From Rhizobiales bacterium 62-47 (GTDB lineage: Bacteria > Pseudomonadota > Alphaproteobacteria > Rhizobiales > Xanthobacteraceae): a DNA stretch of 64,000 bases. The stretch lies in the NCBI GenBank assembly GCA_001899255.1, contig MKVX01000023.1:405660-469659 (forward strand). Reading direction: 5' to 3'. The notes beneath the pieces were generated by a model that had not been told where the DNA came from, made no database searches, and worked only from the letters and a program-made list of their open reading frames with translations. The first letter of the stretch is position 1, and every line of letters starts with the position of its first letter. The position numbers and the translations under genes are program-made. Shown in pieces: positions 6,407 to 34,614 of the stretch.

Positions 6407-6613
6407 AACCACAGACGTCAACAGGCTTCAAACGCCACCGAAAGGATGATGCAATTCGGCAGCTAAGCGCTTGTGATAATGGGATGACCACGCAATAATT
6501 ACGGGCCTCGCGCTTGCATCAGAACTCCCTAAAGAGCCAGGCCAGGATTTGAGCCAGCGACAAAATAATCAGCCACGACCGGCAAACCGGTGGGCGCCTC
6601 AGGAGGAACATTT

Positions 6614-7852: not shown

Positions 7853-7871
7853 TCCCGGCGACCGCATAACC

Positions 7872-7903
7872 GGGAGGCATCGCGCCCCGGCGTGAAGCCT
7901 CCC
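7872..7903 (+). terminator. Hairpin between binding-protein gene and livH
   Basis: GGGAGGC at 7872-7878 pairs with GCCTCCC at 7897-7903. It lacks a T-run, so partial termination or mRNA 3'-end protection fits better than full termination. Such a hairpin is common after the binding-protein gene in ABC operons. Confidence 0.5.
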
Positions 7904-7963
7904 TGTCCCTCATAACCTTTCCTCGCACTTTGCTCGCAGCAATGCGGCTGGCTGGAGTTCGCA

Positions 7964-9828: not shown

Positions 9829-10547
9829 CAGCGTTGCTTTCAGTTCGTGATCTGAGCAAACACTTCCGCGGCCTGGCCGCCGTCAGTCGTGTCAACTTCG
9901 ACGTCAACAGCGGCGAGATATTTGCGATTATCGGTCCGAACGGTGCCGGCAAAACAACCTTATTCAATATGATTGCCGGTGCCATGCCTCCCAACGGCGG
10001 CACGATCACGTTTGCCGGTGAACAAATCGGTGGCCTCCGATCCGACGAGATCGCGCGCCGGGGTATCGGGAGAACCTTTCAGGTCGTCAAGCCATTTCCG
10101 GCGCTCACCGTGGAAGACAACGTCGTTATCGGCGCTTTGATGCGCACCAACTCGCTCAGCGACGCACGCACGACCGCGAGCGAAATCCTCACCAAACTCG
10201 ATCTGATCGCCAAACGCGACCAGATCGCTTCGAGTCTCACTTTGCCCGACCGCAAGCGTCTCGAGGTCGCGCGGGCATTGGCAACCAAGCCAAAACTGTT
10301 GTTGCTCGATGAAGTCATGGCCGGTCTTCGCCCGACGGAAACCGACAGGATCGTCGCGATCCTGCGCGATCTCAACAAAACTGGCTTGACGATCCTGCTC
10401 ATCGAGCACGTCATGCGCGCCGTCACCGCCTTGGCTTCACGCATACTGGTTCTACATCATGGCGCCGCGATTGCCCAGGGCACCCCCGAGCATGTGCTAC
10501 GCGATCCGGCCGTCATCGAATCCTATCTGGGCGCGGAGGCATTGTGA
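9825..10547 (+). CDS. livG: Branched-chain amino acid-type ABC ATPase LivG
   Basis: This 240-residue ATPase energises the transporter. Walker A is GPNGAGKTT and Walker B ends LLLLDEV. The signature region reads LTLPDRKRLEVARAL rather than canonical LSGGQ, a variant I associate with the LivG branch. The true start is the ATG at 9825 overlapping the livM stop; the frame is open far upstream inside livM but that part is not a real protein. The stop overlaps the GTG of livF. Confidence 0.95.
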   Translation: MTALLSVRDLSKHFRGLAAVSRVNFDVNSGEIFAIIGPNGAGKTTLFNMIAGAMPPNGGTITFAGEQIGGLRSDEIARRGIGRTFQVVKPFPALTVEDNVVIGALMRTNSLSDARTTASEILTKLDLIAKRDQIASSLTLPDRKRLEVARALATKPKLLLLDEVMAGLRPTETDRIVAILRDLNKTGLTILLIEHVMRAVTALASRILVLHHGAAIAQGTPEHVLRDPAVIESYLGAEAL

Positions 10548-11251
10548 TGCTCAGCGTCGAGAATCTCAGCGTGTTCCATGGCGATGCGCAAGCGCTGGAT
10601 GACGTGTCTCTGACGGTCAACAAAGGCGCCATCGTCGCGATTGTCGGCGCCAACGGCGCTGGCAAGACTTCGCTGATCCGCACGATTGCCGGCATGCATC
10701 GCCCGGCAACAGGCCGCATCATGTTTGGCGACGCCGATATCGCCGGCCTGCCCAGCCACCGGGTCTGCAATCTCGGCATCGGCCAGGTTGCTGAGGGACG
10801 CCAGATTTTTCCATCGTTGACCGTGTCGGAAAATCTCGACATGGGTGCGATGCTGCCGCGAGCCCGGGCAAAGCGAGAGCACAATCGGCAACGCGTCCTG
10901 ACGATGTTCCCGAAACTCGCGGAGCGCATTGCTCAGGCCGCCGGCACTCTTTCCGGTGGCGAGCAGCAGATGCTCGCCATTGCGCGCTGCCTGATGGGCG
11001 AGCCGAGCCTGATCATGTTCGACGAACCCTCGCTGGGGCTCGCTCCCACCATCGTGCACGACGTCCTCAAGACCATTCGCGATCTCAATATGGAGGGCAT
11101 TACCTGCGTGCTGGTCGAGCAGAACGTCGCTGTCTCGCTCAAGATCGCCAGTCACGCTTACGTTCTCGAAAACGGCCGTGTGACGCTTTCCGGCAGCGGC
11201 GCCGAACTGCTGTCCGATGAGCGCGTGCGGCAGGCCTATCTGGGAATCTAG
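10544..11251 (+). CDS. livF: Branched-chain amino acid-type ABC ATPase LivF
   Basis: This 235-residue second ATPase has Walker A GANGAGKTS, a canonical LSGGEQQ signature, Walker B ending LIMFDEPSLGL, and the switch histidine region CVLVEQN typical of LivF. The start is GTG at 10544 (GTGATG; the ATG at 10547 is equally possible) overlapping the livG stop. It is the last gene of the operon, and a LysR gene converges on it 40 bases later. Confidence 0.95.
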   Translation: MMLSVENLSVFHGDAQALDDVSLTVNKGAIVAIVGANGAGKTSLIRTIAGMHRPATGRIMFGDADIAGLPSHRVCNLGIGQVAEGRQIFPSLTVSENLDMGAMLPRARAKREHNRQRVLTMFPKLAERIAQAAGTLSGGEQQMLAIARCLMGEPSLIMFDEPSLGLAPTIVHDVLKTIRDLNMEGITCVLVEQNVAVSLKIASHAYVLENGRVTLSGSGAELLSDERVRQAYLGI

Positions 11252-11291
11252 ACCGCATTCAACATCGGCGATCGTATACGCTGCGGCGTCT

Positions 11292-14669: not shown

Positions 14670-15005
14670 CTATGCAGCGTAGTCTGGACGCTTTGGCGTA
14701 AACACGTCCAGATTGAGCACCGGCTCGTCACCGATGACTTCCCCCCAATGTTCAACGTTGGATGGAATGACCATCAGTCCGCCAGGCCCCAAGTCCTGCG
14801 TCTCATTGCCGACGTGAAACCGGATCTTCCCCGCGATGATGTAGACGATCTGCTCGTAGGTATGGCTATGCGGCTTCGGCTCATGCCCCGGCATCAGCCG
14901 ATGAAGGGCGAGCGTCGCGGCGCTGCCCGAGAACGCCTTGCGGTCGACGCCCTCACGAACCGGCGTCCACGGAATCGCATCCCAATCGATCTTGTGCAGA
15001 TCCAT
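14670..15005 (-). CDS. Small cupin-domain protein
   Basis: This 111-residue single-domain cupin has motif 1 with the metal ligands H46, H48 and E51 (PHSHTYEQ) and motif 2 with H86 (PSNVEHWG). The ATG at 15005 has GGGAG 6 bases upstream; a TTG two codons earlier is less likely. It is the last gene of the ligA-ligB-hpaB operon. Small cupins in catabolic operons often act as metal-dependent isomerases, decarboxylases or sensors, and this one might process the ring-cleavage product. No specific reaction can be assigned. Confidence 0.88.
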   Translation of the reverse strand: MDLHKIDWDAIPWTPVREGVDRKAFSGSAATLALHRLMPGHEPKPHSHTYEQIVYIIAGKIRFHVGNETQDLGPGGLMVIPSNVEHWGEVIGDEPVLNLDVFTPKRPDYAA

Positions 15006-15064
15006 ACCCAACTCCCATTTGATATTTCATCAACGAACAGCGCCGAACGAGCCGTATTCTTCAC

Positions 15065-15940
15065 TCAATCAAAAATGAATTCCTTCAAACTCGGAACGCC
15101 CAGCCCCTCATAGGCCGTTGAATTCAGCTTGAGCGACATCGCCTTGGCGCAAGCCAGCAGAAGCTTAAGCTGCTCGGGCTCAACAGGTTCGTGGACGTAT
15201 TGCGTGGTACCGACGATCGCGATGGAGCCGACGAGTTCGCCATCGAAATTCATCACGGGCGCAGCCACCGCCGAAATCCCCAGCAACGTCTCGTCCATCG
15301 CGACTTCGTAAAACTCGCGCCGGATTTTCTCCAACCGATTGCGCAACGCTCCCGGTTCGACAACCGTCCGCGGCGTGTAGGACAAGAGCTTCCGCGCCAG
15401 CACGCGTTGCTGCACGGCAGCCGGCGCAAAGGCCAGTGTCACTCGTCCTTGCGCCGAGGCATGGGCCGGCAACCGATAGCCCAGCCGCACCGAAATCGTC
15501 ACCATGTTCGGGCTGTCGACGACGGCGTTGACGATGGCATCGCCGTTGGCGGGCATGCTCAGCACCACCGTTTGGTGGGTCAAATCACGCAGCCTGACCA
15601 TGTAGGGTTCAGCCAACCGGCGCAGATCAAATTGATCCGTCGCCGCCTGCCCGAGATGAACCAGCTTCGGTCCCAGACGGTAGCATTCGGTCTGGCTATC
15701 CTGATCGACAAAACCAAGGAATTTCAGCGTGGAGAGATGACGATGGATCTTGGCCTTGGTTTCCCCGAGTTGGTTCGCAAGCGCGGTCAGGCGCACCGGC
15801 TGCGCTGCCGCTGCCAGCGCTTCCAGAATCTCGGTCGCCGAGACGACCGACTGAATCAGCGGGCCGCCCTTCTCGGAGGATTCATCGCCGTCAATCAATT
15901 CGGCGGAGACGTCCTGCAGCGGATGTTTCGGCTTTTCCAT
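15065..15940 (-). CDS. IclR-family transcriptional regulator
   Basis: This 291-residue regulator has an N-terminal winged helix-turn-helix (SATEILEALAAAAQ, then LANQLGETKAKIHRHLSTL) and the C-terminal IclR ligand-sensing domain (GISAVAAPVMNFDGELVGSI). I prefer the ATG at 15940, 11 bases after the flavin reductase stop, over one at 15967 that would overlap it. IclR proteins such as PcaR and PcaU control protocatechuate genes. Here it lies inside the operon it probably regulates, and the ligA-hyuA divergent promoter with TACGAAAC repeats is the likely target. Confidence 0.9.
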   Translation of the reverse strand: MEKPKHPLQDVSAELIDGDESSEKGGPLIQSVVSATEILEALAAAAQPVRLTALANQLGETKAKIHRHLSTLKFLGFVDQDSQTECYRLGPKLVHLGQAATDQFDLRRLAEPYMVRLRDLTHQTVVLSMPANGDAIVNAVVDSPNMVTISVRLGYRLPAHASAQGRVTLAFAPAAVQQRVLARKLLSYTPRTVVEPGALRNRLEKIRREFYEVAMDETLLGISAVAAPVMNFDGELVGSIAIVGTTQYVHEPVEPEQLKLLLACAKAMSLKLNSTAYEGLGVPSLKEFIFD

Positions 15941-15951
15941 CGATTGACCTG

Positions 15952-16551
15952 TCAGCCAGCCGTCCATGGATCGAAGCCATTCAGCGGCGGCAGGATCCTC
16001 GGCTCATTGGTTGCGGTGTAGTCGGGGGACACGGCGTCCGGCGTCATCGTCCGGTACGATCCACGATAAAAAATCAATGGCTCTCCAGTGACCAGCCGTT
16101 CAAAGCGCAGAACCAGCCCGACAATGATGACGTGGTCACCGCCGTCGTGGAAAGCATGCGTAGTGCATTCGAAACTGGCAAGCGCGCCTTCAATCAACGG
16201 GCAGCCACAGTCCCGCCCAAGGATGAAGTCGACACCGCGCCATTTGTCATCGGACGGGGTCGCGAACGTGTTCGAGAGTTCGCCCTGATCCGCAGCCAGA
16301 ATGTTGACCGCGAACACGCCGGACCGTTCGAATGCCGACAGACTCGGCGAGCGGCGAGCAAGACTGAATTGGACCAGCGGCGGGTCGAGCGATACGGAAG
16401 TGAACGAATTCGCCGTCAGGCCGACCAGAGCTCCCTGCTCTCCGAGAGTCGAAATCACCGTCACGCCGGTCGGAAAACTCGAGAGCGCGTTGCGAAAGCC
16501 ACGCCGATCAAATGCCGCCAGATTCTGGTCGACCGACGGGTGACGGTTCAT
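15952..16551 (-). CDS. Flavin reductase, small component of a two-component monooxygenase (HpaC-like)
   Basis: This 199-residue flavin:NAD(P)H reductase supplies free reduced FAD to the HpaB-type oxygenase encoded upstream in the operon. Family marks are FPTGVTVIST near the N-terminus, LTANSFTSVSLDPPLV, and the GDH motif in HDGGDHVIIVG. The start at 16551 forms an ATGA overlap with the preceding gene; a start at 16590 would overlap it by 43 bases. The length is normal. Pairing with the hpaB gene two positions upstream is the best functional clue. Confidence 0.88.
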   Translation of the reverse strand: MNRHPSVDQNLAAFDRRGFRNALSSFPTGVTVISTLGEQGALVGLTANSFTSVSLDPPLVQFSLARRSPSLSAFERSGVFAVNILAADQGELSNTFATPSDDKWRGVDFILGRDCGCPLIEGALASFECTTHAFHDGGDHVIIVGLVLRFERLVTGEPLIFYRGSYRTMTPDAVSPDYTATNEPRILPPLNGFDPWTAG

Positions 16552-17615
16552 GATGACGGCAATGCCTCTGTCGGAACGAATGTCTTCCAATAGTCAGGAC
16601 GGCTGACCTGCTCCTGATAAGTTCCGAGACGATCGGCCGCTTGTCCAATCAGCGCTGTCGCGGTCAACCCCTTGCGATCGAGATATCCGGAAAACTCGTT
16701 TAACATGCTCGACACCACCGCGACGCCACCCGTAAAAACCGCTGAACTCACTTGAACCGCACTCGCGCCCGAAAGCAGGAAACGCGCGATGTCCAAGCCA
16801 GTACGCGCACCGTTGGTGCCGATCAATGGAAAATCTGGTCCGAGCCGGCGCCGGCATTGTACCAGCCACCGGCACGTCAGCGGCAACGCCCACGAACCGC
16901 CGAAGCCGGCATTGGTTCCGAGCATCGGCGAGAGGGTTTCAACATCCGGGACGAAGGCCATAAAGCGGCCCATGATGGTCACGGCATCGGCGCCGGCTTC
17001 CTTCGCCGCTTGCGCCAGACCCGCGACATCCTCGCTCTGGCCGGTCAACTTGACCCAGATCGGCAGGCGAACGGCGGCCCGGACACGCGCAACGATCTCA
17101 CGGACCCGCGTCGTATCGCGCTCGAGGACAATGGCTCCGCGCGCGGCTTCGTTGCCGTGCGGCGCGCCGATGTTCAGTTCGAGGATGCGCAAGCCCGCTT
17201 GCTCGACCGCCTGCGCCATTTCGACACATCGATCGAGGTCAGCCAGAATGAGACTGGCCGCGACATAGGCATCACGCCGCGCCGCTTCACGATCGAGCAC
17301 CCGCAACATGTCGAGCCACTCGTCAAACGGCTGCTGCGCCAATCCTGACCGGCATAGCAGACTCGCATCCGGCGGTGGCGCGTACGCCCACGGCAAACGT
17401 CGCCAGTTGCTGTCCAGCAACGCATAGTCCGTGCTGTCGAGTTGACGCTTGGCGGCCTGGCTTTCATTGGCGGACTTTGGGATGACGACGGCTGCTCCGG
17501 CCGCCAACGCAAGGCGAACGCCTTCGGCATACATCAAGTGCTCACCAGCGCCGCAGATCAGCGGCGACTTCAATCGAGTTGCGCCAATCGAGACGCTGGT
17601 GTCTTGAACTGTCAT
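16548..17615 (-). CDS. Dihydroorotate-dehydrogenase-like flavoprotein
   Basis: This 355-residue TIM-barrel protein resembles class 1 dihydroorotate dehydrogenases and the dihydropyrimidine dehydrogenase C-terminal barrel. It starts SIGATRLKSPLICGAG, has ILELNIGAPHG where the family has its substrate-binding Asn region, IWVKLTG with the FMN lysine, and a late GTNGARTG and GASAVQVSSAVF phosphate-binding end. Genome pyrimidine synthesis needs only one pyrD, and this copy lies in a catabolic operon between hpaB (23 bases away) and its reductase. A role in reducing or dehydrogenating a ring or a cleavage product is therefore more likely than pyrimidine synthesis. Confidence 0.8.
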   Translation of the reverse strand: MTVQDTSVSIGATRLKSPLICGAGEHLMYAEGVRLALAAGAAVVIPKSANESQAAKRQLDSTDYALLDSNWRRLPWAYAPPPDASLLCRSGLAQQPFDEWLDMLRVLDREAARRDAYVAASLILADLDRCVEMAQAVEQAGLRILELNIGAPHGNEAARGAIVLERDTTRVREIVARVRAAVRLPIWVKLTGQSEDVAGLAQAAKEAGADAVTIMGRFMAFVPDVETLSPMLGTNAGFGGSWALPLTCRWLVQCRRRLGPDFPLIGTNGARTGLDIARFLLSGASAVQVSSAVFTGGVAVVSSMLNEFSGYLDRKGLTATALIGQAADRLGTYQEQVSRPDYWKTFVPTEALPSS

Positions 17616-17638
17616 CGTCGCCTTTTGCCAGATATCGC

Positions 17639-19150
17639 TTATTCGGCTGCGGACAACACCGGCCGAAACCCGAGGGGCGCTCCGTCTCCGGTCTGGCGTG
17701 CTTCGAGACCGTCGAGCAAATCCGTGATGCGATCCACGTAAGGCTCCTTATCGTAAATCTCGTAGAGAGTCCCGGAAAGCCGCACAGGATCGCCCGAGTA
17801 ATAACGTTCATAGAGCTGCTGCCGCCCAGAGAACGACGACACAGCAGCATCGAAAGCGAGCCGGAACAGCTTGATCCGATAACGCGAATCTGCGTTTGCA
17901 GCCTGGAAGTAGGTTTCGACGTCCTTGCTCACCGGCCCCGACAGTTCGGAGAACGACGGCACGGCGACCAGACCGCCGGCACCGAGGATCTGGATGATCT
18001 CGCACATCCGAATGAACATCTTCGGGAACATCATGCGAATGGTCCACAGCGGCATCGCGGCAGGCGTCATGAATCCTTGAGCATTGGGAGCGGCATCGAC
18101 TTCGCTGGCACGCAAGCAAGCGCGGACGAATTCGGTGTACTGGATCAACTCCGCCAGCAGGCCTTGCACATGCAGATGGGCATCCACTTTCGTCGAGCGA
18201 ACCATGGCGAAGGCGACCGCCATCATAAATTCGGCCTTCGCCAGATTCTTGGTGCTGAACTGATGCATGATCTGCGGCATCGCACCTGTGCGGTTATACA
18301 GGCCGTTGCACATCTCAGCGTCGCGGTGAATGAAGACGCGTTCCCACGGGATCAACACGTTGTCGAAGATCACCATGGCATCGGTCTCGTCGAGACGCGA
18401 CGACAATGGAAAGTCCATCGACGAGCCCGGATTTTCATGAATAACCGACGGCCGACAGATGAACCGCAGGCCAGGCGCATTGACCGGGACCGCAAATCCG
18501 AAGGCATAGGGCTTGGCTTCGTCATTATTCGACAGATATGTCGACGGCATCACCAGGAGATCGTGGGAATAGGCACAGAGCGTCGCCACCATGCGAGCGC
18601 CGTTGACGACGATTCCCGCGTCGGTCTCCTTGACAACCTTGGCAGCAAGATCCTTGTCCTGTTTCTCGACCGGCTTCGAACGATCGACCTGCGGATTGAT
18701 CAGCGTGTGCGTCATCGCGATATCGTTATCGCGGCAATATTCGTAGTACTTCCAGATGTTCTCCGAATATTTCTTGTCTTTCTGTCCGAAGGCATCGGAG
18801 GCCGAGGCGAAACCGGTCAACGTGATATTCATGAAATCCGGACTACGGCCGAACATTCCGCACGTCGCGTCCATCCAGGTTTTCACCATGCCACGCCGGC
18901 GCACCAGATCATCGACGGTTTTCGGCTGGATGAACGACATTCCGACGCGCTCGCCATTCAAGGGCGACTTGTAAGTCATCGCGTCGATGCGCTTGGCATC
19001 GTGCTGCATGTCGTATAGCTCGGCCATGGTGTAGGCCGCCGCTGCGAAACGACGGTCCTTGGTCACGTCCGTGACCAACTCGCCGTCGATCCACATCTGG
19101 CGACCGTCGCGCAGCGATTCGATGTATTCTTTACCCGTACGAATGCCCAT
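17639..19150 (-). CDS. 4-hydroxyphenylacetate 3-monooxygenase family oxygenase (HpaB-like)
   Basis: This 503-residue FADH2-dependent oxygenase of the HpaB family hydroxylates a phenolic (or related) ring ortho to an OH group. The N-terminus MGIRTGKEYIESLRDGR is family-typical, and the central IPWERVFIHRD segment and C-terminal SFSELSGPVSKDV region line up with HpaB. The Cys/His ligands of the related 4-hydroxybutyryl-CoA dehydratase are not apparent, so a monooxygenase is favoured. It lies 21 bases after ligB and shares the operon with an HpaC-like reductase, which makes a hydroxylation-then-extradiol-cleavage sequence likely. 4-Hydroxyphenylacetate itself need not be the substrate. Confidence 0.9.
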   Translation of the reverse strand: MGIRTGKEYIESLRDGRQMWIDGELVTDVTKDRRFAAAAYTMAELYDMQHDAKRIDAMTYKSPLNGERVGMSFIQPKTVDDLVRRRGMVKTWMDATCGMFGRSPDFMNITLTGFASASDAFGQKDKKYSENIWKYYEYCRDNDIAMTHTLINPQVDRSKPVEKQDKDLAAKVVKETDAGIVVNGARMVATLCAYSHDLLVMPSTYLSNNDEAKPYAFGFAVPVNAPGLRFICRPSVIHENPGSSMDFPLSSRLDETDAMVIFDNVLIPWERVFIHRDAEMCNGLYNRTGAMPQIMHQFSTKNLAKAEFMMAVAFAMVRSTKVDAHLHVQGLLAELIQYTEFVRACLRASEVDAAPNAQGFMTPAAMPLWTIRMMFPKMFIRMCEIIQILGAGGLVAVPSFSELSGPVSKDVETYFQAANADSRYRIKLFRLAFDAAVSSFSGRQQLYERYYSGDPVRLSGTLYEIYDKEPYVDRITDLLDGLEARQTGDGAPLGFRPVLSAAE

Positions 19151-19171
19151 AGCTTCCCTCGATCAATAAAA

Positions 19172-20008
19172 TCAGGCGTCGGCGCCTTCGAAAACGATGA
19201 GGCCGTATCCGGTCAACATCGGCGCATAGTAGTGGCGGTGAATGCGTCGCACTTTTTCACCAAGCGACGAACGCATTGCCAACCACATGATCATTTCCAC
19301 GGATTCCGCTCCGCCACGCTCCATGTAATCGTGATGCTTGAGCTTCACGAGCGCTTGCGGATCATGCTCGAGCAGATCCAGGAATTCGTTGTCCCAATCC
19401 GGATTCATGAACCCGAAGCGATCGCCATGCAGCTGATGCGACATGCCACCCGTCGCAACGACCAGGACACGGAGATCCTTCGGGTAGCTTTCGACCGCGC
19501 GGCGAATCGCCTGCCCCAGATGGAAGAATCGCCTTGGCGTCGGCAGCGGATGCTGGATGACATTGGCGGCGAGCGGAATCAGGGGTGCCGGCCAACGATT
19601 GTCGGTCAACAGCGGCAAGATCGACAGAATGCCGTGATCGACCGGCATCTCCTGACAAATCGTCGGATCGAACTCGTCTTCGACCAGACTCTGCGCCATG
19701 TGCCACGAGAAATCGGCATCACCCGGCAAATCCGGCAGATCGCGCTTGCCCCAGCCTTCATCGGCTTGCGGGTGTTTATCGGAAACACCCAGCGCGAATG
19801 TCGGATACGCATCGAAGAAAAAGCGATTCATGTGATCGTTGTAGACCGCAACGATCACATCGGGCTTGAGCTTCTCGAGCCACGCCTTCGCCGGCTCGTA
19901 CCCCTTGTAGAGCGGCGACCATGCCGGATCCTCCTGCAGGCCGCGATCGAACGAGTGCGCAATCGAAGGCGCGTGCGAACAGCCGATGCCGCCGACGATA
20001 CGAGCCAT
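19172..20008 (-). CDS. ligB: Extradiol ring-cleavage dioxygenase, catalytic (beta) subunit LigB
   Basis: This 278-residue class III extradiol dioxygenase beta chain, as in protocatechuate 4,5-dioxygenase, opens a catechol-type ring next to the two OH groups using Fe(II) and O2. Candidate iron ligands are visible: H12 in GCSHAP, H59 in NDHMN, and a glutamate in GGAESVE (E235 or E238). A catalytic His is present in MSHQLHG. The ATG at 20008 lies 1 base after the ligA stop; the longer open frame reads into ligA and was rejected. Alpha and beta chains are separate genes, as in Sphingobium LigAB. The downstream 4,5-pathway genes are not in the window. Confidence 0.93.
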   Translation of the reverse strand: MARIVGGIGCSHAPSIAHSFDRGLQEDPAWSPLYKGYEPAKAWLEKLKPDVIVAVYNDHMNRFFFDAYPTFALGVSDKHPQADEGWGKRDLPDLPGDADFSWHMAQSLVEDEFDPTICQEMPVDHGILSILPLLTDNRWPAPLIPLAANVIQHPLPTPRRFFHLGQAIRRAVESYPKDLRVLVVATGGMSHQLHGDRFGFMNPDWDNEFLDLLEHDPQALVKLKHHDYMERGGAESVEMIMWLAMRSSLGEKVRRIHRHYYAPMLTGYGLIVFEGADA

Positions 20009-20009
20009 C

Positions 20010-20384
20010 CTAGTGATTCCTTTCGACAGCAGAGCCTTGCTTCGCAGGCCGGGTTTGCATGAACTCTTCAAAGCTCTGGCCGCGCATCTGCGCACCCATC
20101 TGCAGCAGATTCTGCCCCACCGCTCCGCCAACCTTGATCAGCACGTAGATGTTGCCGCCCGCGGCAACGAGTCCCTTCCAGTCGCGCTTGGTGACGAGAT
20201 CCATCTCGGCCTCGGTCAATCCGCATGACTTCATGTAGGCGCGCTCGTCGGCGCGAAACGCATTGCGATTGGCCTCGTCCGTCAGCGACATCGAAAACTT
20301 GTTGATGCGATAGCCCTGGCGCGAGCGCGCTCCGGTGAAAACCGTCGTGCCGGCAATAGGCGTGCCCCGATACGTTGCTGTCAT
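20010..20384 (-). CDS. ligA: Extradiol dioxygenase small (alpha) subunit LigA
   Basis: This 124-residue LigA-type chain caps the active site of LigB. Family sequence is clear: NKFSMSLTDEANRNAF, then GLTEAEMDLVTKRDW and GGNIYVLIKVG. The ATG at 20384 was chosen over one at 20405 because the family starts about here; both are possible. It is the first gene of a seven-gene operon (ligA-ligB-hpaB-DHOD-flavin reductase-iclR-cupin) and is divergent from hyuA across a 173-base promoter region. Confidence 0.92.
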   Translation of the reverse strand: MTATYRGTPIAGTTVFTGARSRQGYRINKFSMSLTDEANRNAFRADERAYMKSCGLTEAEMDLVTKRDWKGLVAAGGNIYVLIKVGGAVGQNLLQMGAQMRGQSFEEFMQTRPAKQGSAVERNH

Positions 20385-20429
20385 GACCCAAGCGCTCCGT
20401 CCCATTGTATCGAATTGTGAGACATTTTC

Positions 20430-20448
20430 TATTTGTACGAAACAAATA
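20430..20448. promoter_or_regulatory. Inverted repeat TATTTGT-N5-ACAAATA in the ligA-hyuA promoter region
   Basis: A perfect 7-bp inverted repeat with a 5-base centre lies 46 bases before ligA and about 110 before hyuA. Its centre contains TACGAAAC (20436-20443), repeated exactly at 20542-20549 next to the hyuA start. A pair of such elements fits an IclR-type operator, and the operon encodes an IclR protein. Confidence 0.55.
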
Positions 20449-20541
20449 TCCGGAGAAACTGATTTGCGTCAACCGGAAATGTTGATTTGACACCAAACAT
20501 TCGAATCTCTATCGTCTGAAAAATGATACATAGTATTGTAA

Positions 20542-20549
20542 TACGAAAC
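20542..20549. promoter_or_regulatory. Second TACGAAAC element, 8 bases before hyuA
   Basis: This is an exact copy of the 8-mer at 20436-20443, placed where a bound repressor would block the hyuA start region. The repeat could be chance, but both copies fall inside one short divergent promoter region. Confidence 0.4.
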
Positions 20550-20557
20550 TACACCAA

Positions 20558-22660
20558 ATGAGAGGCGTCGTGACAACCGCGGAAAATCCAGCACTTTCGA
20601 GCTACGCCTTGGCCGTCGATATCGGCGGGACTTTCACGGACGTGGTGCTTCGCAACGCGACTGGTAAAACCTGGGTCGACAAGACGCTGACCACGCCGGA
20701 AAGCCTGGACGTCGGCTTTTTTCGCGCGGTCGACGCCGTTCTGGCCAAGGCCGGTATCCGGCCGACAGCCGTGACCGACGTCGTGGTGCATGCCACCACG
20801 GTCGTCACCAACGCGGTGATCGAACGCAAAGGTCCGACGACGGCCTTGCTGGTGACCGAGGGGTTCCGGGATATCCTGACCATTCGCGACGAGCATCGCT
20901 ATGAGATGTTCGATCCGCAGATTGAGTTCCCGGCCCCATTGGTGCCGCCCGAATTCACATTCGGCATTCCGGAGCGGGTCGCGGCGACCGGCGAATTGCT
21001 GAAGCCGCTCGACCGGGCCAAGGCCGAATCCGTCATCAAGGAGTTGCGTGACAAGAAAGTCGTTTCGGTCGCGATCTCATTCCTCAACTCGTTCTTGAAT
21101 CCAGAGAACGAGCGCGCCATGCGCGGGTTGCTCAACGAGCTGGCGCCCGAGCTGTATGTCTCAATTTCCTCCGAGGTCGCCCCGCTGATCCGGGAATATC
21201 CGCGTACCTCGACAGTGGTGATGAATGCCTACACCGCGCCGATCACACGGCCTTATCTCGATGCACTGACGCGAGGACTGAAGCAGCGCGGGTTTGCCCA
21301 CGATCCGCTGATCATGCTGAGCAATGGCGGCGTGATCGGCGTCGATGTCGCGGGCAATTTCCCGGTGCGCATGGTCGAATCGGGACCGGCAGCGGGCGCC
21401 CTCGCCGCGACATATTACGCAGAGGTTCTCGGCCTCGATCGCCTGCTGTCGTTCGACATGGGCGGCACCACCGCGAAAGCCTGCGTCATCGAAGATCGCA
21501 AGCCGCTCGTCACCGGGCACTTCGAAGTCGATCGCATCTATCGTTTCAAGACCGGCAGCGGCCTGCCGATTCTTATTCCTTCGGTCGATATGATCGAAAT
21601 CGGCGCCGGTGGCGGCAGTATCGCGTCGATTAGCGACCTTGGCCTGCTGAAAGTCGGCCCACAAAGCGCCGGCTCAACGCCAGGACCGGTTGCCTACGGT
21701 CGCGGCGGCATGAACCCGACGGTTACCGACGCCGATCTGGTGCTGGGTTATCTTAGCGCGGATGGCTTTCTCGGCGGCGAAATGCGGCTCGACCGTGATG
21801 GCGCGGTCAAGCAATTGAGTACGCTCGCCGAACAACTCGGCACTTCGGTCGGCGATGTCGCCGCAGGCATCTATCGTGTCGTCGGCGAATCGATGACCGC
21901 GGCGGCTCGCGCACACGCCGCTGATCGCGGCATCGACTATCGCGGCGTGCCGCTGTTTGCCTTCGGCGGTGCGGGTCCAGTGCATGCATGTTACGTCGCC
22001 GACCTGCTCGAAAGCCCGATGGTGATCTATCCGCCGCTCGCCAGCGTGTTGTCGGCGTTCGGGACGCTGGTGACGCCGCCGCGCCTCGATCTCGGTCAGG
22101 GCGCACTTTCCCGGCTCTCGTCGCTCGACTGGAATGTTGTGGACAAAATCATCGGCCAACTCGTCGATGACGCGCGCAAGGGCCTGGCGAGCGCCGGCTG
22201 CAAGGGAAGCGACATCCATTTCCAGTTCGGCGCCGACATGCGCTACTTTGGCCAACAGAACGAAGTTTCAGTGACGCTGGACACCGACCCGCGCGAGCGC
22301 CATGACATCGCCTGGCTGCGTCATGCCTTCGAAGAGGCCTATGAGCGGCTTTACAGTTTCCGGCTACCGGAGGTCGACGTCGAAGCCGTGATCTGGCGGC
22401 TGGTGGCAACCGGACCTGTGGCGCATCGCGACAGCGCGCCGGAATTCAAGACGCAGACTGCCGATAAGATCAAAACTCGCAAGGCCCGCTTCAACGGACA
22501 CGATGTCGATACACCGGTTTACGCGCGCCGCGAACTGGTGCTCGACCAAAGCATCGACGGTCCCGCGATTATCGAAGAACGCGAAACCACAATCATCATT
22601 CTTCCGGGCTGGCGCGCGACCGTCGATCGCACCGGATGCATCATGGCCGTCAAGAGGTAA
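20558..22660 (+). CDS. hyuA: Hydantoinase/oxoprolinase subunit A (HyuA)
   Basis: This 700-residue ATP-binding subunit belongs to the N-methylhydantoinase A / acetone-acetophenone carboxylase beta family. The actin-like phosphate loop DIGGTFTDVVL is near residues 21-31, with the second ATP-site segment SFDMGGTTAKAC in the middle and GGAGPVHA near residue 468. The length is normal. Together with HyuB it uses ATP to phosphorylate a carbonyl (lactam, hydantoin or ketone) before hydrolysis or carboxylation. The first gene of a hyuA-hyuB-binding protein unit, it diverges from ligA. The substrate cannot be read off; acetophenone-type carboxylation and lactam opening are both compatible. Confidence 0.93.
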   Translation: MRGVVTTAENPALSSYALAVDIGGTFTDVVLRNATGKTWVDKTLTTPESLDVGFFRAVDAVLAKAGIRPTAVTDVVVHATTVVTNAVIERKGPTTALLVTEGFRDILTIRDEHRYEMFDPQIEFPAPLVPPEFTFGIPERVAATGELLKPLDRAKAESVIKELRDKKVVSVAISFLNSFLNPENERAMRGLLNELAPELYVSISSEVAPLIREYPRTSTVVMNAYTAPITRPYLDALTRGLKQRGFAHDPLIMLSNGGVIGVDVAGNFPVRMVESGPAAGALAATYYAEVLGLDRLLSFDMGGTTAKACVIEDRKPLVTGHFEVDRIYRFKTGSGLPILIPSVDMIEIGAGGGSIASISDLGLLKVGPQSAGSTPGPVAYGRGGMNPTVTDADLVLGYLSADGFLGGEMRLDRDGAVKQLSTLAEQLGTSVGDVAAGIYRVVGESMTAAARAHAADRGIDYRGVPLFAFGGAGPVHACYVADLLESPMVIYPPLASVLSAFGTLVTPPRLDLGQGALSRLSSLDWNVVDKIIGQLVDDARKGLASAGCKGSDIHFQFGADMRYFGQQNEVSVTLDTDPRERHDIAWLRHAFEEAYERLYSFRLPEVDVEAVIWRLVATGPVAHRDSAPEFKTQTADKIKTRKARFNGHDVDTPVYARRELVLDQSIDGPAIIEERETTIIILPGWRATVDRTGCIMAVKR

Positions 22661-22666
22661 GTAAAA

Positions 22667-24238
22667 ATGGATGGCATCGAGCTCGAGATTCTCTGGAGCA
22701 ATCTGATCAGCATCGTCAGCGAGCAGGCCAAAGCGCTGCAGCGCATCGCTTTCAGCCCGGTCGTGCGCGAAGCCGGCGATCTCGCCAACGCGCTGTTCGA
22801 CACGCAGGGCCGCATGGTGGCGCAGGCTATCACCGGCACGCCCGGCCACATCAATTCGCTTGCCGCGGCCGGCAAGCATTTCGTCAAGGAATTTCCGCCG
22901 GAAAGCCTGAATCCCGGCGATGTTCTCATCACCAACGATCCGTGGTTATCGGCCGGACACTTCTTCGACATCACGGTGATGCTGCCCGCCTTTCACAAGG
23001 GCAAGTTGATCGGGTTCTTCGGCTCGACGATTCATCATACCGATATCGGCGGATATGGCGTCGGTGCCGGTGCCCGCGACATCCACGAAGAAGGTCTGTG
23101 GATTCCGCTGCTCAAGCTCTACGAGGCGGGCAAACCCAATAAGGTCTTGCACGACATCATCAGGACGAACGTGCGGACTCCGGATGAAGTGTTCGGCGAC
23201 CTCGCCGCGCAAATCTCCAGCGGCAAACTGGCCTGTACCCGACTATCGGCGCTACTCGACCGGCAGGGTCAGGACAATATCGAAACGCTAGCGCAGGAAA
23301 TCATCAGCCGCTCCGAGACGGCAACGCGCAACGCCATTCGCAAGTTGAAGCCGGGCACGTTCCACGGCGAAAGCCGCTTCGACGTCCCCGGAGGCGATGT
23401 CGTTACGCTGAAGACAGCAGTGACGGTCGATACCGAGCAAGGTTCGATCCTGATCGACTTCGAAGGCAGCTCCGGACCGAGCCCGTACGGCATCAACGTC
23501 GTGATGAACTACACCCATGCCTACAGTACGTTTGCCATTCGAAGCTGCCTGAACCCGGAGTTGCCGAACAATTTCGGAAGTCTTGCCCCAATCCTGGTCA
23601 AGGCGCCGGAAGGCTGCATCGTCAATTGCAAGTATCCGTCACCGGTGAACGCTCGCCACGTCGTCGGCATGTATGTGCCGATGCCGATCCTCAAGGCGCT
23701 CTATCACGTCATGCCGGACCGCGTGCTGGCCGAAGGTGCTGGCGCGGTCTGGACCATTCAGGTGCAGGGCAAGAACCTCGACGGCTCTCCGTTCACCAGC
23801 GCGATGTTCAATTACTCCGGCGGCATGGGCGCGCGACGCAACAAGGACGGCCCAAGCGCGACCTGTTATCCGACGGGAGTCGCTGCGGTGCCGGTGGAAA
23901 TCCTCGAAGCATCAATGCCGATCCTGTTCAACCGCAAGGAATTGCATCGCGGTACCGGCGGCAACGGCGCCATGCGCGGCGGCGATGGCCAGATCATCAG
24001 CTTCAACATGCGAACCAAAAGCGAATGGCTGCTCAACGCCGTCACCAGCCGCACCAACCTGGCTCCCGAGGGCCTCGAAGGCGGCGAGCCCGGCTCCGCT
24101 GGCCGATTCCTCATCAACGGCCAGCCGGTGAGCAACGCTCGCAAGATCGTCATGCAGCCGGGTGACGAAGTGACGCTCGATACGCCCGGCGGCGGCGGCT
24201 ACGGCCGCGCCATATCGCTGACGCGGGCAGCGGAATGA
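22667..24238 (+). CDS. hyuB: Hydantoinase/oxoprolinase subunit B (HyuB)
   Basis: This 523-residue partner of HyuA belongs to the N-methylhydantoinase B / acetone carboxylase alpha family. Conserved metal-site-like segments are present: LITNDPWLSAGHFFD and STIHHTDIGGYG in the first third, then NARHVVGMYV and the glycine-rich C-terminal PGGGGYGRA. It starts 6 bases after hyuA, so the two are translated as a pair. No third acetone-carboxylase gamma subunit is adjacent, which favours oxoprolinase- or hydantoinase-type chemistry, or an acetophenone-carboxylase-like reaction lacking its small subunits. Confidence 0.92.
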   Translation: MDGIELEILWSNLISIVSEQAKALQRIAFSPVVREAGDLANALFDTQGRMVAQAITGTPGHINSLAAAGKHFVKEFPPESLNPGDVLITNDPWLSAGHFFDITVMLPAFHKGKLIGFFGSTIHHTDIGGYGVGAGARDIHEEGLWIPLLKLYEAGKPNKVLHDIIRTNVRTPDEVFGDLAAQISSGKLACTRLSALLDRQGQDNIETLAQEIISRSETATRNAIRKLKPGTFHGESRFDVPGGDVVTLKTAVTVDTEQGSILIDFEGSSGPSPYGINVVMNYTHAYSTFAIRSCLNPELPNNFGSLAPILVKAPEGCIVNCKYPSPVNARHVVGMYVPMPILKALYHVMPDRVLAEGAGAVWTIQVQGKNLDGSPFTSAMFNYSGGMGARRNKDGPSATCYPTGVAAVPVEILEASMPILFNRKELHRGTGGNGAMRGGDGQIISFNMRTKSEWLLNAVTSRTNLAPEGLEGGEPGSAGRFLINGQPVSNARKIVMQPGDEVTLDTPGGGGYGRAISLTRAAE

Positions 24239-24315
24239 TTGCAATGTCGCGATAAAACGCTCTAAATGAGCAAAACAACGGCTAACAGGCCGCAACCAAG
24301 GGGAGGCTCAACGTA

Positions 24316-25527
24316 ATGTTCGCTAGAAGTATATCTGTCCTCGCAGCATTGGCGGCCGCGTTGCTGTCAACATCGGCAGCGCAAGCGCAAGTGTCCGATG
24401 ACATGGTGAAAATCGGCGTACTGACCGATATGTCAGGGCCGGCATCGACGCCGACCGGTCAGGGATCGGTCACCGCGGCGCAGATGGCCGTGGAGGATTT
24501 CGGCGGCACCGTGCTCGGCAAGCCGATATCGGTGATCGTCGGCGACCATCAACTCAAGCCGGACATCGGCTCCGGTATTGCGCGCCGCTGGTACGATACG
24601 GAGCAAGTGGACCTGATCCTCGACGTTCCGGTCTCCGCTGTCGGACTGGCAGTACAAAGCGTCGCCAATGACCGTCGCAAGCTGATGATTACCCACGCGA
24701 CTGGATCGGCTGATTTCCATGGCAAGTTCTGTTCACCCTACGCCATTCAGTGGGTGTTCGATACGCGCGCCCTCGCCGTCGGTACCGCGCAGGAAGTCGT
24801 CAAACGCGGCGGCGATAGCTGGTTCTTCATCACGGACGACTATGCTTTCGGACATTCGCTCGAACGCGACGCATCTGCGGTCATCACCAAGAATGGCGGC
24901 AAGGTCGTCGGCTCGGTGCGCCCGCCGTTCGCAACGCCGGACTTATCATCCTTCGTGCTGCAGGCTCAGGCATCCAAGGCCAAGATCATCGGCATCGCCG
25001 GTGGCCCGCCGAACAACACCACCGCGATCAAGACCGGCGGCGAATTCGGCGTCTTCAAGGGCGGCCAACAGATGGCCGGCCTGCTGGTGCTGATTACCGA
25101 CATCCACGCGCTGGGATTGCCGGTTGCTCAGGGCCTGCTGCTGACCACGTCGTTCTATTGGGATATGGACGACAAGACCCGCGAATGGTCGAAGCGCTAC
25201 TTCGCCAAGATGAACCGCATGCCGACGATGTGGCAGGCCGGCGTCTATTCTTCGGTCATCAACTACCTCAACGCCATCAAGAATGCCGGCACCGACGATC
25301 CGCTAAAGGTTGCCGCAAAGATGCGTGAAAAGCCGATCGAGGATTTCTTCTCGCGTAACGGCAAGCTGCGCGAAGACAACCTGATGGTCCACGATCTGGT
25401 TCTGGTGCAGGTCAAGACGCCGCAAGAATCCAAGTATCCGTGGGATTACTACAAGATCCTGACGCGCATCTCCGGCGACGAGGCGTTCGGTCCGCCGGAT
25501 CCGGCCTGCTCGCTGGTCAAGAAGTAG
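24316..25527 (+). CDS. Liv-type ABC substrate-binding protein linked to hyuAB
   Basis: This 403-residue periplasmic binding protein has a Sec signal of about 25 residues ending SAAQAQ, then MVKIGVLTDMSGPASTPTGQG, the lobe-one start of the amide/branched-chain amino acid family. AGGGGAGG precedes the ATG. It lies 77 bases after hyuB on the same strand and is followed by a hairpin, so it closes the hyuAB transcript. No permease is adjacent. Its ligand is probably the substrate of the HyuAB/HpaB/LigAB pathway or a precursor. Confidence 0.9.
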   Translation: MFARSISVLAALAAALLSTSAAQAQVSDDMVKIGVLTDMSGPASTPTGQGSVTAAQMAVEDFGGTVLGKPISVIVGDHQLKPDIGSGIARRWYDTEQVDLILDVPVSAVGLAVQSVANDRRKLMITHATGSADFHGKFCSPYAIQWVFDTRALAVGTAQEVVKRGGDSWFFITDDYAFGHSLERDASAVITKNGGKVVGSVRPPFATPDLSSFVLQAQASKAKIIGIAGGPPNNTTAIKTGGEFGVFKGGQQMAGLLVLITDIHALGLPVAQGLLLTTSFYWDMDDKTREWSKRYFAKMNRMPTMWQAGVYSSVINYLNAIKNAGTDDPLKVAAKMREKPIEDFFSRNGKLREDNLMVHDLVLVQVKTPQESKYPWDYYKILTRISGDEAFGPPDPACSLVKK

Positions 25528-28202: not shown

Positions 28203-28733
28203 TCATACGACGATCTGCAAATCCAGACTGCCCATCTCTGAAAACTCTTCGCAATCGCGTTCGTCGCCGGCCTCCCACATCAGCATCGTCATAACCGCTG
28301 GCGTATCGAGCGCGACCATTGGGGCATGCCATACGCCTTGGCGGTAATGCACGATCTGCTTGGCATTGCCGACAAATGCAACAGCGCGCGAGAAATCGGG
28401 TCGCCCGCCGCGGTCCGGCGCGACGGCGACCAGAAATCGCGAGCACATCATCGGAATAAAAACCTGCGACGACAGGACGTGTCGCTCGAAGCAGGTGACC
28501 GCAAACGGCAACGGCGACGGATCGATCCGATAGATATCGAGCACCGGCTTTCGCGCTTCCGTATCGTGCGCAAGATCGTTTATGCCCGGCAGACGCAGCG
28601 CCCGCCCCTGATTGACCGTTCGCCCACCGCCATCATGATCGACGGCAACCACCGTGCCGAACGGAGCGAAGCTCGCCGGCGCAAGAAGCTCGGCGCGAAT
28701 GAGATGCGGCGTGATGGGCGGCGAGCCCGGCAT
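28203..28733 (-). CDS. allA: Ureidoglycolate lyase AllA
   Basis: This 176-residue enzyme splits (S)-ureidoglycolate into glyoxylate and urea, the last step of allantoate breakdown. Family segments are visible: LLAPASFAPFGTV near the N-terminus, the FERHVLSSQVFIPM strand, and RQGVWHAPMVAL, which holds the conserved active-site histidine region. The length is normal (about 160-175). Its ATG shares one base with the stop of livF (TAATG), so it is translationally coupled to a transporter operon. That suggests the transporter takes up a ureide, or that this copy acts on a related ureido compound. Confidence 0.9.
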   Translation of the reverse strand: MPGSPPITPHLIRAELLAPASFAPFGTVVAVDHDGGGRTVNQGRALRLPGINDLAHDTEARKPVLDIYRIDPSPLPFAVTCFERHVLSSQVFIPMMCSRFLVAVAPDRGGRPDFSRAVAFVGNAKQIVHYRQGVWHAPMVALDTPAVMTMLMWEAGDERDCEEFSEMGSLDLQIVV

Positions 28734-29476
28734 TAGAAATTGATCCCCAGCCAGGCCTTGACCTGCTCGTGCAGGTTACCGGCGAAATCGGCCGGTGCGC
28801 CCGATGCGGTGATCTCGCCGAGGCTCAAAACATAAATACGATGTGACATCGCAATAACGCGGCGGACATTGTGATCCACCAGCAGAATTGCCATCTGCTC
28901 CGACGCGAACAGATGTATCCACTGGAACACCTCCTCGACGATCTTCGGCGCCAGTCCGATCGATGGCTCGTCAATCAGGCATAGGCGCGGGCGAACCAGC
29001 CATGCCTTGGCGAATTCCACCATCTTCTGTTGTCCACCGGATAGGTCGCCTGCCTGCGCACGCAATTTGGGCTGCAATGCTGGAAACTTCTCAAGCATCT
29101 CCTCGAAACGACGATCGATCTCCGCACGATCCGGCTGCCCAACCGACCGCGACAGCCCTTCCAGCGGCAAGCGGAGATTCTCGGTCACCGTCATGAAGGG
29201 AAACAGGCTGGATTCCTGCGGAATGTACCAGATGCCGCGCGCGCTCAATTGATGCGGCGCGATGCCGGTAATGTCCTCGCCCTGATAGACGACGCGGCCA
29301 TGCTTCGGCTTGAGAAATCCGCAGATGGCTTTCATGACCGTCGATTTGCCGGCGCCGTTGAGGCCGATCAGACCCGTGATCGATCCTGCCTCGACCGTGA
29401 GACTCAACGTGCGGAGCACATCGATATCGCCGCTGTAGCCGGCAGTAATATTGTCGAGCGTGAGAACCTCACTCAT
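28733..29476 (-). CDS. livF: Liv-type ABC ATPase LivF (ureide-linked operon)
   Basis: This 247-residue ATPase has Walker A GLNGAGKST, signature LSGGQQK and Walker B ending LCLIDEPSIGL, with the LivF-type VDHNVRR switch region. I take the ATG at 29476, which overlaps the livG stop (ATGA); the open frame upstream lies inside livG and has no LivF similarity. The stop overlaps the allA start by one base. Confidence 0.95.
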   Translation of the reverse strand: MSEVLTLDNITAGYSGDIDVLRTLSLTVEAGSITGLIGLNGAGKSTVMKAICGFLKPKHGRVVYQGEDITGIAPHQLSARGIWYIPQESSLFPFMTVTENLRLPLEGLSRSVGQPDRAEIDRRFEEMLEKFPALQPKLRAQAGDLSGGQQKMVEFAKAWLVRPRLCLIDEPSIGLAPKIVEEVFQWIHLFASEQMAILLVDHNVRRVIAMSHRIYVLSLGEITASGAPADFAGNLHEQVKAWLGINF

Positions 29477-30192
29477 GCTGCCTGCCCGCCAAGATAGGCT
29501 TCGATCACATCGGCATTGCTGAGCACTGTGCGGGTCGGCGCGTCGATGATAACCTTTCCGGCGTTCATGCACACCGCGCGCGGGCACAACTCGACGATCA
29601 CCGGCATATCGTGGCTGACCAGAATAAAGGTCTGTCCTTGTTCGTGGCGCGAACGAATGAAACCACCCATGATCTCCTTCATGGTCGGATGCACTGCTGC
29701 GAACGGCTCATCGAGCAAGGCGATGCGCGGCGGCACCATGAAGCACACGCCGAACTCCAGCAGCTTCATCTGCCCACCGGAGAGTTGCCCCGCATCCAGC
29801 GCACGCACAGCATCGAGGCGCAGTTCTTCAATCAGCGTATCGGCACGATTCAGAGCTTCAGCGCCATCCAGCCCCAGCGCCCGCCCTGCCACGAGCAGAT
29901 TATCGATGACGTTCATCCGGCGGAACACACGAGTGAGCTGAAACATCCGCATGACGCCACGATGCGCCAGTTGCTCCGGCTTGAGGCCATGACATGGCGC
30001 CCCGTCGAGCAATATCTCGCCGCCATCCGGCTCGGCCAGTCCGCTCAGAATATTGAGCAGAGTTGTCTTGCCCGAGCCGTTCGGCCCAATTAGCCCAACC
30101 AATTCGCCGGCGTCGATATCGAAGCTCGCGCCATCGACGGCTGTAAGCCCGCCATAACGCTTGACGATTCCACGCACCGATAAAAGGCTCAC
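29473..30192 (-). CDS. livG: Liv-type ABC ATPase LivG (ureide-linked operon)
   Basis: This 239-residue ATPase has Walker A GPNGSGKTT, signature LSGGQMK and Walker B ending IALLDEPFAAV. The real start is GTG at 30192, overlapping the livM stop (GTGA) and beginning with the expected LLSVRGIVKRYGG; a longer open frame upstream is livM read out of frame. An odd point is the alanine-rich AAVHP where most LivG proteins have AGMNP or AGLNP after Walker B. Confidence 0.94.
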   Translation of the reverse strand: MSLLSVRGIVKRYGGLTAVDGASFDIDAGELVGLIGPNGSGKTTLLNILSGLAEPDGGEILLDGAPCHGLKPEQLAHRGVMRMFQLTRVFRRMNVIDNLLVAGRALGLDGAEALNRADTLIEELRLDAVRALDAGQLSGGQMKLLEFGVCFMVPPRIALLDEPFAAVHPTMKEIMGGFIRSRHEQGQTFILVSHDMPVIVELCPRAVCMNAGKVIIDAPTRTVLSNADVIEAYLGGQAA

Positions 30193-32077: not shown

Positions 32078-32104
32078 CGTAACTAACCTTGTCGCCCGAG
32101 TTGG

Positions 32105-33334: not shown

Positions 33335-33625
33335 CGTGGTCTCTCTCCCTATCGGATCGCTTCTTGAATTGAGCGTCCGGGCAGTATGAGCGAAACATAT
33401 ACAGCTTGGCAAGCATCGGCGTCATAATTGTAAGTTGCCCGAGCACACAGCTATGTTGATCGCTGCGATTGGCTCGCGTCACGGATCACAAGAGCAGCAG
33501 CAACGGCAAGCACAGCCTGAATACACGTTCGACAAGCAACGGCGTTACTCACGATAGATGCGATGCCGCGGACGCCGCCACGAGACGGTTACGTCAGGGG
33601 CGTCCTCATCTCCCGACCGAACTGA

Positions 33626-34516: not shown

Positions 34517-34614
34517 GAAACCTCCAGTGTTCACTTTCTCGGCCGCCGCAGGATGCGCGCCTATTGTTGGGCAAGGCAGTGTTGCCAGATGGGCGACAGC
34601 ATGCCCGCAAGATT

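Follow-up and report, generated by a model that had tools for sequence, protein, structure and literature searches.

Several described systems share parts with the locus analyzed here, a divergent cluster of ten genes found in a stretch of 64,000 nucleotides (the window) from Rhizobiales bacterium 62-47 (contig MKVX01000023.1, forward-strand positions 405,660 to 469,659). The locus, at window positions 14670-25527, consists of a minus-strand operon in the order ligA-ligB-hpaB-DHOD-flavin reductase-iclR-cupin (DHOD, dihydroorotate dehydrogenase-like) and of the divergent plus-strand genes hyuA, hyuB and a binding protein gene. The protocatechuate 4,5-cleavage pathway of Sphingobium, composed of LigABCIJK, shares with it a two-subunit LigAB-type extradiol dioxygenase; here, however, LigA falls below the equivalog cut-off, LigK was not found in the genome, and HpaB, a DHOD-like protein, HyuAB and a cupin are present instead. 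The 4-hydroxyphenylacetate (hpa) degradation system with a Thermus-type HpaB has in common an HpaB that exceeds the HpaB-1 cut-off and a flavin reductase, but in the present locus LigAB takes the place of HpaD, Tyr104 of HpaB is replaced by Phe, and no other hpa genes are found.

The remaining proteins also have well-described relatives. Caprolactamase CapAB, N-methylhydantoinase and 5-oxoprolinase are likewise built of HyuA and HyuB subunits and provide the nearest solved relatives of HyuB, whereas the proteins of the window score far below the CapA and CapB cut-offs and show linkage with ring-cleavage and cupin genes. The acetophenone and acetone carboxylases belong to the same superfamily, and genes for a CoA ligase and a thiolase lie in operons of relatives of the window HyuAB, which itself is less similar to these carboxylases. 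KdgF, a cupin of pectin degradation, linearizes uronates; the window cupin is similarly small and matches it significantly but weakly, and no uronate genes were recognized nearby. The dihydropyrimidine and dihydroorotate dehydrogenases give the nearest fold and sequence matches to the DHOD-like protein within the DHO_dh family, from which it differs by scores below the cut-offs, by its single chain of 355 residues and by the replacement of the catalytic cysteine (by Ala, or by Thr in a branch linked to DUF6282).

The locus is an unusual combination of ordinary parts, with a recurrent module among them, and it likely encodes one pathway with unusual lower steps. As a plausible though tentative reading, it would be under IclR control and serve the breakdown of a hydroxylated aromatic carboxylic acid, with HpaB hydroxylating the substrate, LigAB cleaving the ring, and the product passing to the DHOD-like enzyme, HyuAB and the cupin instead of LigC, LigI and LigJ. 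The first-pass annotation of this DNA knew of no described pathway with exactly this set; a literature search on the gene set, DUF6282, homarine and the genus, which covered few subscription papers, likewise turned up no pathway or cluster of this kind. Homarine was considered because its operon holds unusual enzymes.

Occurrence of the Locus in Other Genomes

A scan of genome contigs with HpaB returned 26 loci, on which the window proteins were then placed. The HpaB-LigAB-DHOD set was found in six genomes, the window's included, and hyuAB faces ligA in five of them, which bears out the earlier claim that these genes form one locus. Because the full arrangement recurs in a Pseudolabrys metagenome-assembled genome (L019), in Rhizobiales 64-17 (L020), in an alphaproteobacterial metagenome-assembled genome (L021) and on two contigs of one further genome (L027/L030 in G003), it is more than chance. 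Some details vary: in L021 the cupin gene is flanked by hpaB and dhod, and a branched-chain-type ABC transporter is inserted between iclR and the cupin gene in L019 and L020. The binding protein is 79, 79, and 92% identical in L019, L020, and L027, respectively, and placement of the window proteins on L021 gave no match for it. In the sixth genome (G262), the genes ligA-ligB-hpaB-dhod (L065) face an HpaI-type aldolase, a DUF6282 protein and a flavin reductase, while hyuAB is located on another contig (L109) together with iclR and a cupin gene (49%); the HyuB encoded there is 77% identical along the 369 residues that precede the end of the contig. The idea that the DUF6282 protein and the aldolase replace HyuAB in G262 was dropped for this reason.

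The gene set is rare and patchy. An HpaB match at E 1e-150 or better was obtained in three of 198 genomes of the family (the window's, G003 and G945, the last with an HpaB of 87% identity and left out of the six-genome count), and the DHOD-like protein was matched at 1e-60 in two of 385 genomes of the class, again including the window's.

Gene Arrangement and Divergent Promoter Region

All ten genes of named families were confirmed by open reading frames and by Pfam and NCBIfam profile searches (Table 1), so that the divergent layout of the first-pass annotation stands with every family in its place. Along the minus strand, gaps of 1, 21 and 23 bp are followed by two overlaps and then by 53 bp before the cupin gene. 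The start of ligB was set near 20008 rather than at the longest-frame start; homologues begin there, and therefore ligA and ligB do not overlap. For the flavin reductase, the gene caller selected the ATG at 16551, which overlaps the stop of the DHOD-like gene, and a TTG at 16590 is also possible. This caller was home-made, trained on 12 window genes, and poor on L024; functions given below as assigned by eye were read from its output.

Table 1. Features of the divergent locus, with positions counted along the window
Feature	Position	Strand	Evidence
ligA, class III extradiol dioxygenase small subunit	20010..20405	-	Pfam LigA 1.2e-31; TIGR02792 87.1 bits, cut-off 108.6
ligB, catalytic subunit	19172..20008	-	PRK13365 422.1 bits, cut-off 299; 46% identical to 3wku
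hpaB, oxygenase of two-component flavin-dependent phenol hydroxylase	17639..19150	-	TIGR02309 511.1 bits, cut-off 480.2
DHOD-like FMN (flavin mononucleotide)-type oxidoreductase without catalytic Cys	16548..17615	-	Pfam DHO_dh 4.3e-18; NCBIfam DHOD/PreA models below cut-off
Flavin reductase, presumed HpaB partner	15952..16551 (or 16590)	-	Pfam Flavin_Reduct 4.5e-41
IclR-type regulator	15065..15967	-	Pfam IclR_C 5.9e-34; PcaR/PcaU/PobR subfamily 144.8 bits, below cut-off 284.75
Small single-domain cupin, weakly KdgF-like by sequence	14670..15011	-	Cupin_2 1e-16; KdgF-structure matches
Shared divergent region with GTTTCGTA at 20436-20443 and 20542-20549	20406..20557	.	Motif scan
hyuA, ATPase-type subunit, hydantoinase/oxoprolinase family	20558..22660	+	Pfam Hydantoinase_A 1.8e-80; CapA 476 bits, ApcC 293.5 bits, both below cut-offs
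hyuB, second subunit	22667..24238	+	Pfam Hydantoinase_B 1.2e-142; solved relatives
Branched-chain-amino-acid-type periplasmic binding protein	24316..25527	+	Peripla_BP_6 4.4e-102

The sequence GTTTCGTA occurs three times in the window, two of them within the 152-bp gap between hyuA and ligA. The expected number is 0.76 per window, and 5 of 100 shuffles reach three, for a pattern that was picked after being seen. The two copies in the gap are 106 bp apart, about ten helical turns, which fits two putative operators for the IclR protein. The congener (L027) has an exact and a one-mismatch copy 105 bp apart, and L019 and L020 have a two-mismatch and a one-mismatch copy at 106 bp, a weaker pair with seven such loose matches in each. 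Loose matches are enriched in all five divergent regions, the observed number being reached by 0 to 0.8% of simple shuffles. On the strength of this motif pair, the shared control of hyuAB and ligA proposed previously is probable.

The HpaB-LigAB Head

HpaB exceeds the cut-off of the HpaB-1 oxygenase model and keeps R100, H142, S197 and T198 (Thermus numbering), four of the five positions that we take to be substrate residues of 4-hydroxyphenylacetate 3-hydroxylase; the fifth, Y104, is Phe. Phe is also found at this place in most aligned relatives, near and far, and Tyr in L021; the frame-broken HpaB of L028 and L031 fell outside the comparison. Besides the window and G262, ligA-ligB is located directly upstream of hpaB at seven of the 13 loci whose HpaB is at least 66% identical. 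Three others (L025, L030, L031) have little upstream sequence, and three (L022, L024, L032) are without the ligA-ligB pair, L024 holding a distant LigB relative (24%).

LigA stays below the protocatechuate 4,5-dioxygenase equivalog, and LigB exceeds the cut-off of its class III subfamily. The nearest solved structure to LigB is gallate dioxygenase (3wku; 125 of 274 aligned residues identical, 295.9 bits). LigB keeps H12, H59, H125, H191 and E238, presumably the iron ligands and acid-base histidines. Of two residues of gallate dioxygenase to which we ascribe functional roles, Thr267 is kept in LigB, and the Glu377 place is occupied by Ile in LigA. The gallate dioxygenase model PRK13367 gives 366.7 against a cut-off of 412, and the enzyme is here made of two chains as opposed to a fused one. 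These comparisons do not allow either gallate or protocatechuate to be assigned to LigAB as its substrate. Family membership and gene order support HpaB and LigAB as successive steps, that is, the hydroxylation followed by extradiol cleavage that the first-pass annotation had proposed.

Other genes accompany such enzymes elsewhere. In L026 and L028, ligA-ligB-hpaB is found with a GntR regulator, a thiamine-diphosphate enzyme, a sulfatase (by Pfam in L026) and an aldehyde dehydrogenase (by Pfam in L028), which is another lower set for the ligAB-hpaB pair. The window's own genome carries a second, distant LigB (L018 8225-9520, on C5) beside a small protein that is LigA-like by eye and has no NCBIfam match, surrounded by transporter and indolepyruvate-oxidoreductase-like genes (by eye).

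The DHOD-Like Enzyme, HyuAB and the Cupin

All listed NCBIfam models place the DHOD-like protein below cut-off, among them the dihydroorotate dehydrogenase and PreA models (110.5 against 270 and 99.4 against 335). By alignment it is nearest to dihydropyrimidine dehydrogenase, whose Cys671 falls on Ala151. Ala occupies this place in the five aligned copies from HpaB-LigAB loci and Thr in four DUF6282-linked copies; C671A and C671S are described mutants of dihydropyrimidine dehydrogenase, found as fold-search matches. The structure model is weak (mean predicted local distance difference test 63.5, 5 sequences), and the fold search only restates the sequence result. Because of the scores below cut-off and the Ala at the place of the catalytic cysteine, the protein is, judged by its sequence, no known DHOD or PreA; the label given to it earlier holds for the DHO_dh family and not for the catalytic residue or the specific models.

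The closest solved relatives of HyuB are N-methylhydantoinase (3.6e-52) and the hydantoinase 6yra (1.7e-38), followed by acetophenone carboxylase (8.5e-21). HyuAB accordingly resembles N-methylhydantoinase and caprolactamase more closely than it does acetophenone or acetone carboxylase, and it scores below every curated cut-off: 476 and 180.5 against 1000 for the CapAB equivalogs, and 293.5 against 1500, 207.5 against 1250, and 80 against 1500 for ApcC, ApcA, and ApcD. Outside HpaB-LigAB neighborhoods, HyuB is still 70-77% identical and HyuA 55-60%, and therefore the chemistry of HyuB is probably common to HpaB-LigAB loci and other settings. The earlier assignment of HyuAB to a single aromatic pathway is upheld in part: linkage within the locus favors it, while close relatives (HyuB 70-74%) in gene runs without HpaB or LigA mean that these proteins are not tied to aromatic chemistry. 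PMC6061476 reports that a related caprolactamase uses ATP to open a lactam, and it places hydrolases and carboxylases within a single superfamily.

The cupin has its best match in 4e2g (3e-10), a cupin named only by fold, and matches the KdgF structures 5fq0 (1.9e-7), 5fpz and 5fpx (both about 5e-5).

Recurrent Lower Modules

Relatives of the DHOD-like protein matched over at least 80% were found in nine plasmid records, six of which were opened (L045-L048, L062, L064). In all six, the DHOD gene is followed by those of a DUF6282 protein and an HpcH/HpaI-family aldolase; an IclR gene and a transporter of the TRAP or ABC type lie in the vicinity. In four, a cupin and an aldehyde dehydrogenase come next, the cupin being 60-69% identical to the window's (by annotation only in L064), and three (L047, L048, L062) have a class III aminotransferase. 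Vitamin B6, kojic acid, polyamine and pyrimidine metabolism were considered as conceivable roles for these DUF6282 operons. Two chromosomal loci found via the cupin, L091 and L092, are similar to the plasmid ones (DHOD 52 and 43%, cupin 65 and 57%). No aldolase was seen in the DHOD-DUF6282-cupin locus of L092, whose gene run (4386-11285) adjoins a histone-deacetylase-fold protein, an aminotransferase and an aldehyde dehydrogenase. Two members of the family have a DHOD-like protein of 51% identity in different surroundings, L017 with DUF6282 (42%) and L016 without it but with a transporter binding protein that matches the one in L019 at 65%.

A search with the cupin alone in 397 genomes of the order gave 17 genomes, and one context was considered for each of the 16 besides the window's; a second, weaker match in G638 lies outside these contexts. 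The cupin shares one gene run with IclR and HyuA in 14 of the 16 and with DHOD-DUF6282 in the other two, and neither LigA nor HpaB was found in any of them within the fetched stretches. HyuB is present in 13 of the 14 HyuA-cupin contexts, the contig of L095 ending at hyuA. In L084 the cupin is followed by a CoA ligase (by Pfam), as it is in most other HyuAB contexts (by eye), thiolase genes were confirmed by Pfam in the runs of L084 and L096, and an HpaI-type aldolase (40-46%) occurs in 6 of the 14. A Bosea plasmid carries the order IclR-hyuA-hyuB-ABC-cupin (HyuB 72%, cupin 77%, binding protein 71% like L019's); the tyrosine recombinase adjoining this operon (L061 1835-2461) hints that it is mobile. 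In L093 (155-16532), the HyuAB-cupin run lies beside a LigB-family 3-carboxyethylcatechol 2,3-dioxygenase (339.8 bits, cut-off 291) and mhp-like genes (by eye).

Because the cupin runs with HyuA or with DHOD-DUF6282 hold no LigA or HpaB, the locus appears to be a ring-cleavage head to which a lower module, elsewhere present without HpaB-LigAB, has been coupled. A wider proposal, possible rather than probable, is that a portable lower module (a small KdgF-like cupin with HyuAB, or with the Cys-less DHOD-like protein, DUF6282 and an HpaI-type aldolase) operates in several undescribed pathways of Hyphomicrobiales and related bacteria. Its coupling here to an HpaB-LigAB head would give an ATP-consuming extradiol exit that bypasses LigC, LigI and LigJ.

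Proposed Pathway and Alternative Explanations

On family-level support, HpaB and the flavin reductase would add a hydroxyl adjacent to the existing one, and LigAB, backed also by gene order, would cleave the ring beside the hydroxyl pair. The ring-fission product, probably closed to a 2-pyrone- or lactam-like ring, would then enter the lower module. The Cys-less flavoenzyme may alter its level of unsaturation, after which HyuAB may open the ring at the expense of ATP and the KdgF-like cupin may linearize or tautomerize the product before a final cleavage, for which some relatives would use an HpaI-type aldolase and the present bacterium presumably other enzymes. The order of the last steps is a guess, and the substrate is inferred to be an aromatic acid. 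If the proposal is true, the lower steps of a ring-cleavage route spend ATP and employ enzymes hitherto associated with lactam, ketone or uronate chemistry; DUF6282 and the DHOD branch without catalytic cysteine gain a biological setting; and automatic names such as PCA dioxygenase, dihydroorotate dehydrogenase and hydantoinase may be misleading for several of a single pathway's enzymes.

Several points weigh against this proposal. The six genomes represent few lineages, since the window and G003 belong to one genus and L019 and L020 seem to resemble each other (99% identity between their transporter binding proteins). In L021 the spacing of the motif pair is not kept, and the gap measures 82 bp. 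With its catalytic Cys lost, reduction by the DHOD-like enzyme is an assumption; the KdgF match is weak; and HyuAB may act as a carboxylase and not as a hydrolase. DUF6282 had no match in the window's genome in a search made without a positive control, and a close relative of the G262 aldolase was not found there, the best match (29%) lying inside an HPA-type cluster. LigI, LigJ and LigC may also be present elsewhere in the genome.

The last point touches on ordinary gallate or protocatechuate meta-cleavage, with a gallate-type LigAB, a hydratase and an aldolase unrecognized elsewhere, and HyuAB, DHOD and cupin acting on another substrate under the same regulator. The gallate dioxygenase structure nearest to LigB and the retained Thr267 speak for it, and the genome has four PF04909 amidohydrolases. 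Three of these, scanned with NCBIfam, were not named at 1e-12 (whether LigI and LigJ models were present there was left unchecked), and the stretches read around these three hold no meta-cleavage genes; the fourth is a weak match. None of the four was linked to LigI or LigJ, although either may still be among them, and no search was aimed at LigC. We consider this explanation rather improbable, given the gallate dioxygenase score below cut-off, the Ile at the Glu377 place, and the location of dhod and the cupin gene within the ligAB run. Moreover, one of the two RraA-like proteins of the genome reaches only 67.1 against 304.5 bits with the LigK model (TIGR02798), and the other has no match at 1e-12. 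Somewhat better placed, although still unlikely, is that HyuAB acts as an ATP-dependent ketone carboxylase of the acetone or acetophenone type, and not as a ring hydrolase, with CoA ligase and thiolase finishing the route in the operons of relatives. Acetophenone breakdown proceeds by carboxylation, followed by CoA ligation and thiolysis, and the AMP-binding ligases and thiolases of the HyuAB runs would suit this order. HyuAB is homologous to both types of enzyme, and the aminotransferase type of the DUF6282 operons, which a lactam route might need, is absent from all 14 HyuAB contexts (other types were judged by eye; a DegT-type gene lies upstream in L095). The closer sequence similarity of HyuAB to N-methylhydantoinase and caprolactamase argues against it.

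Two further explanations concern the substrate. HpaB might simply be a 4-hydroxyphenylacetate 3-hydroxylase that supplies the homoprotocatechuate cluster of the same genome (C18:421114-427136, L110), LigAB being a side activity. In that cluster, HpaD, HpaH and HpaR exceed their cut-offs and HpaG-, HpaF- and HpaI-like proteins fall below theirs; no hpaB lies beside it in the stretch read, and among the three HpaB-family proteins of the genome only the window's passes the HpaB-1 cut-off. However, HpaD exceeds its cut-off in the window's genome (G000), G003, G011 and G017, the last two without a close HpaB, and not in G262 (a 92% complete assembly), which has the locus; HpaD therefore does not track it. 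Together with the conserved ligA-ligB-hpaB order, this makes the explanation very doubtful. A nitrogen heterocycle, for example a hydroxypyridine acid whose cleavage leaves a lactam for HyuAB to open, had been envisaged by the first-pass annotation and is quite improbable. The families of HyuAB and of the DHOD-like protein favor it indirectly, the latter being nearest to dihydropyrimidine dehydrogenase and a HyuAB relative opening a lactam with ATP, as reported in PMC6061476. No nitrogen-handling gene was recognized in the locus, and HpaB and LigAB keep residues that we presume to bind phenolic acids. The route from a hydroxylated aromatic acid through HpaB and LigAB to the lower module is kept as the preferred reading.

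Other Catabolic Genes

A second HpaD over the cut-off is encoded in the same genome at C5:97209-98099. Another stretch, C18:562102-566780 (L115), resembles a hydroxyquinol pathway, with flavin reductase-like, iron alcohol dehydrogenase-like and intradiol dioxygenase-like proteins and a second HpaB-family protein (29%), mostly assigned by eye. Within the window itself, positions 28206-35463 are perhaps a second catabolic locus, which contains ABC transporter genes and an alpha/beta hydrolase (by eye), as well as a ureidoglycolate-lyase-like protein and an intradiol dioxygenase, both below the NCBIfam cut-offs.

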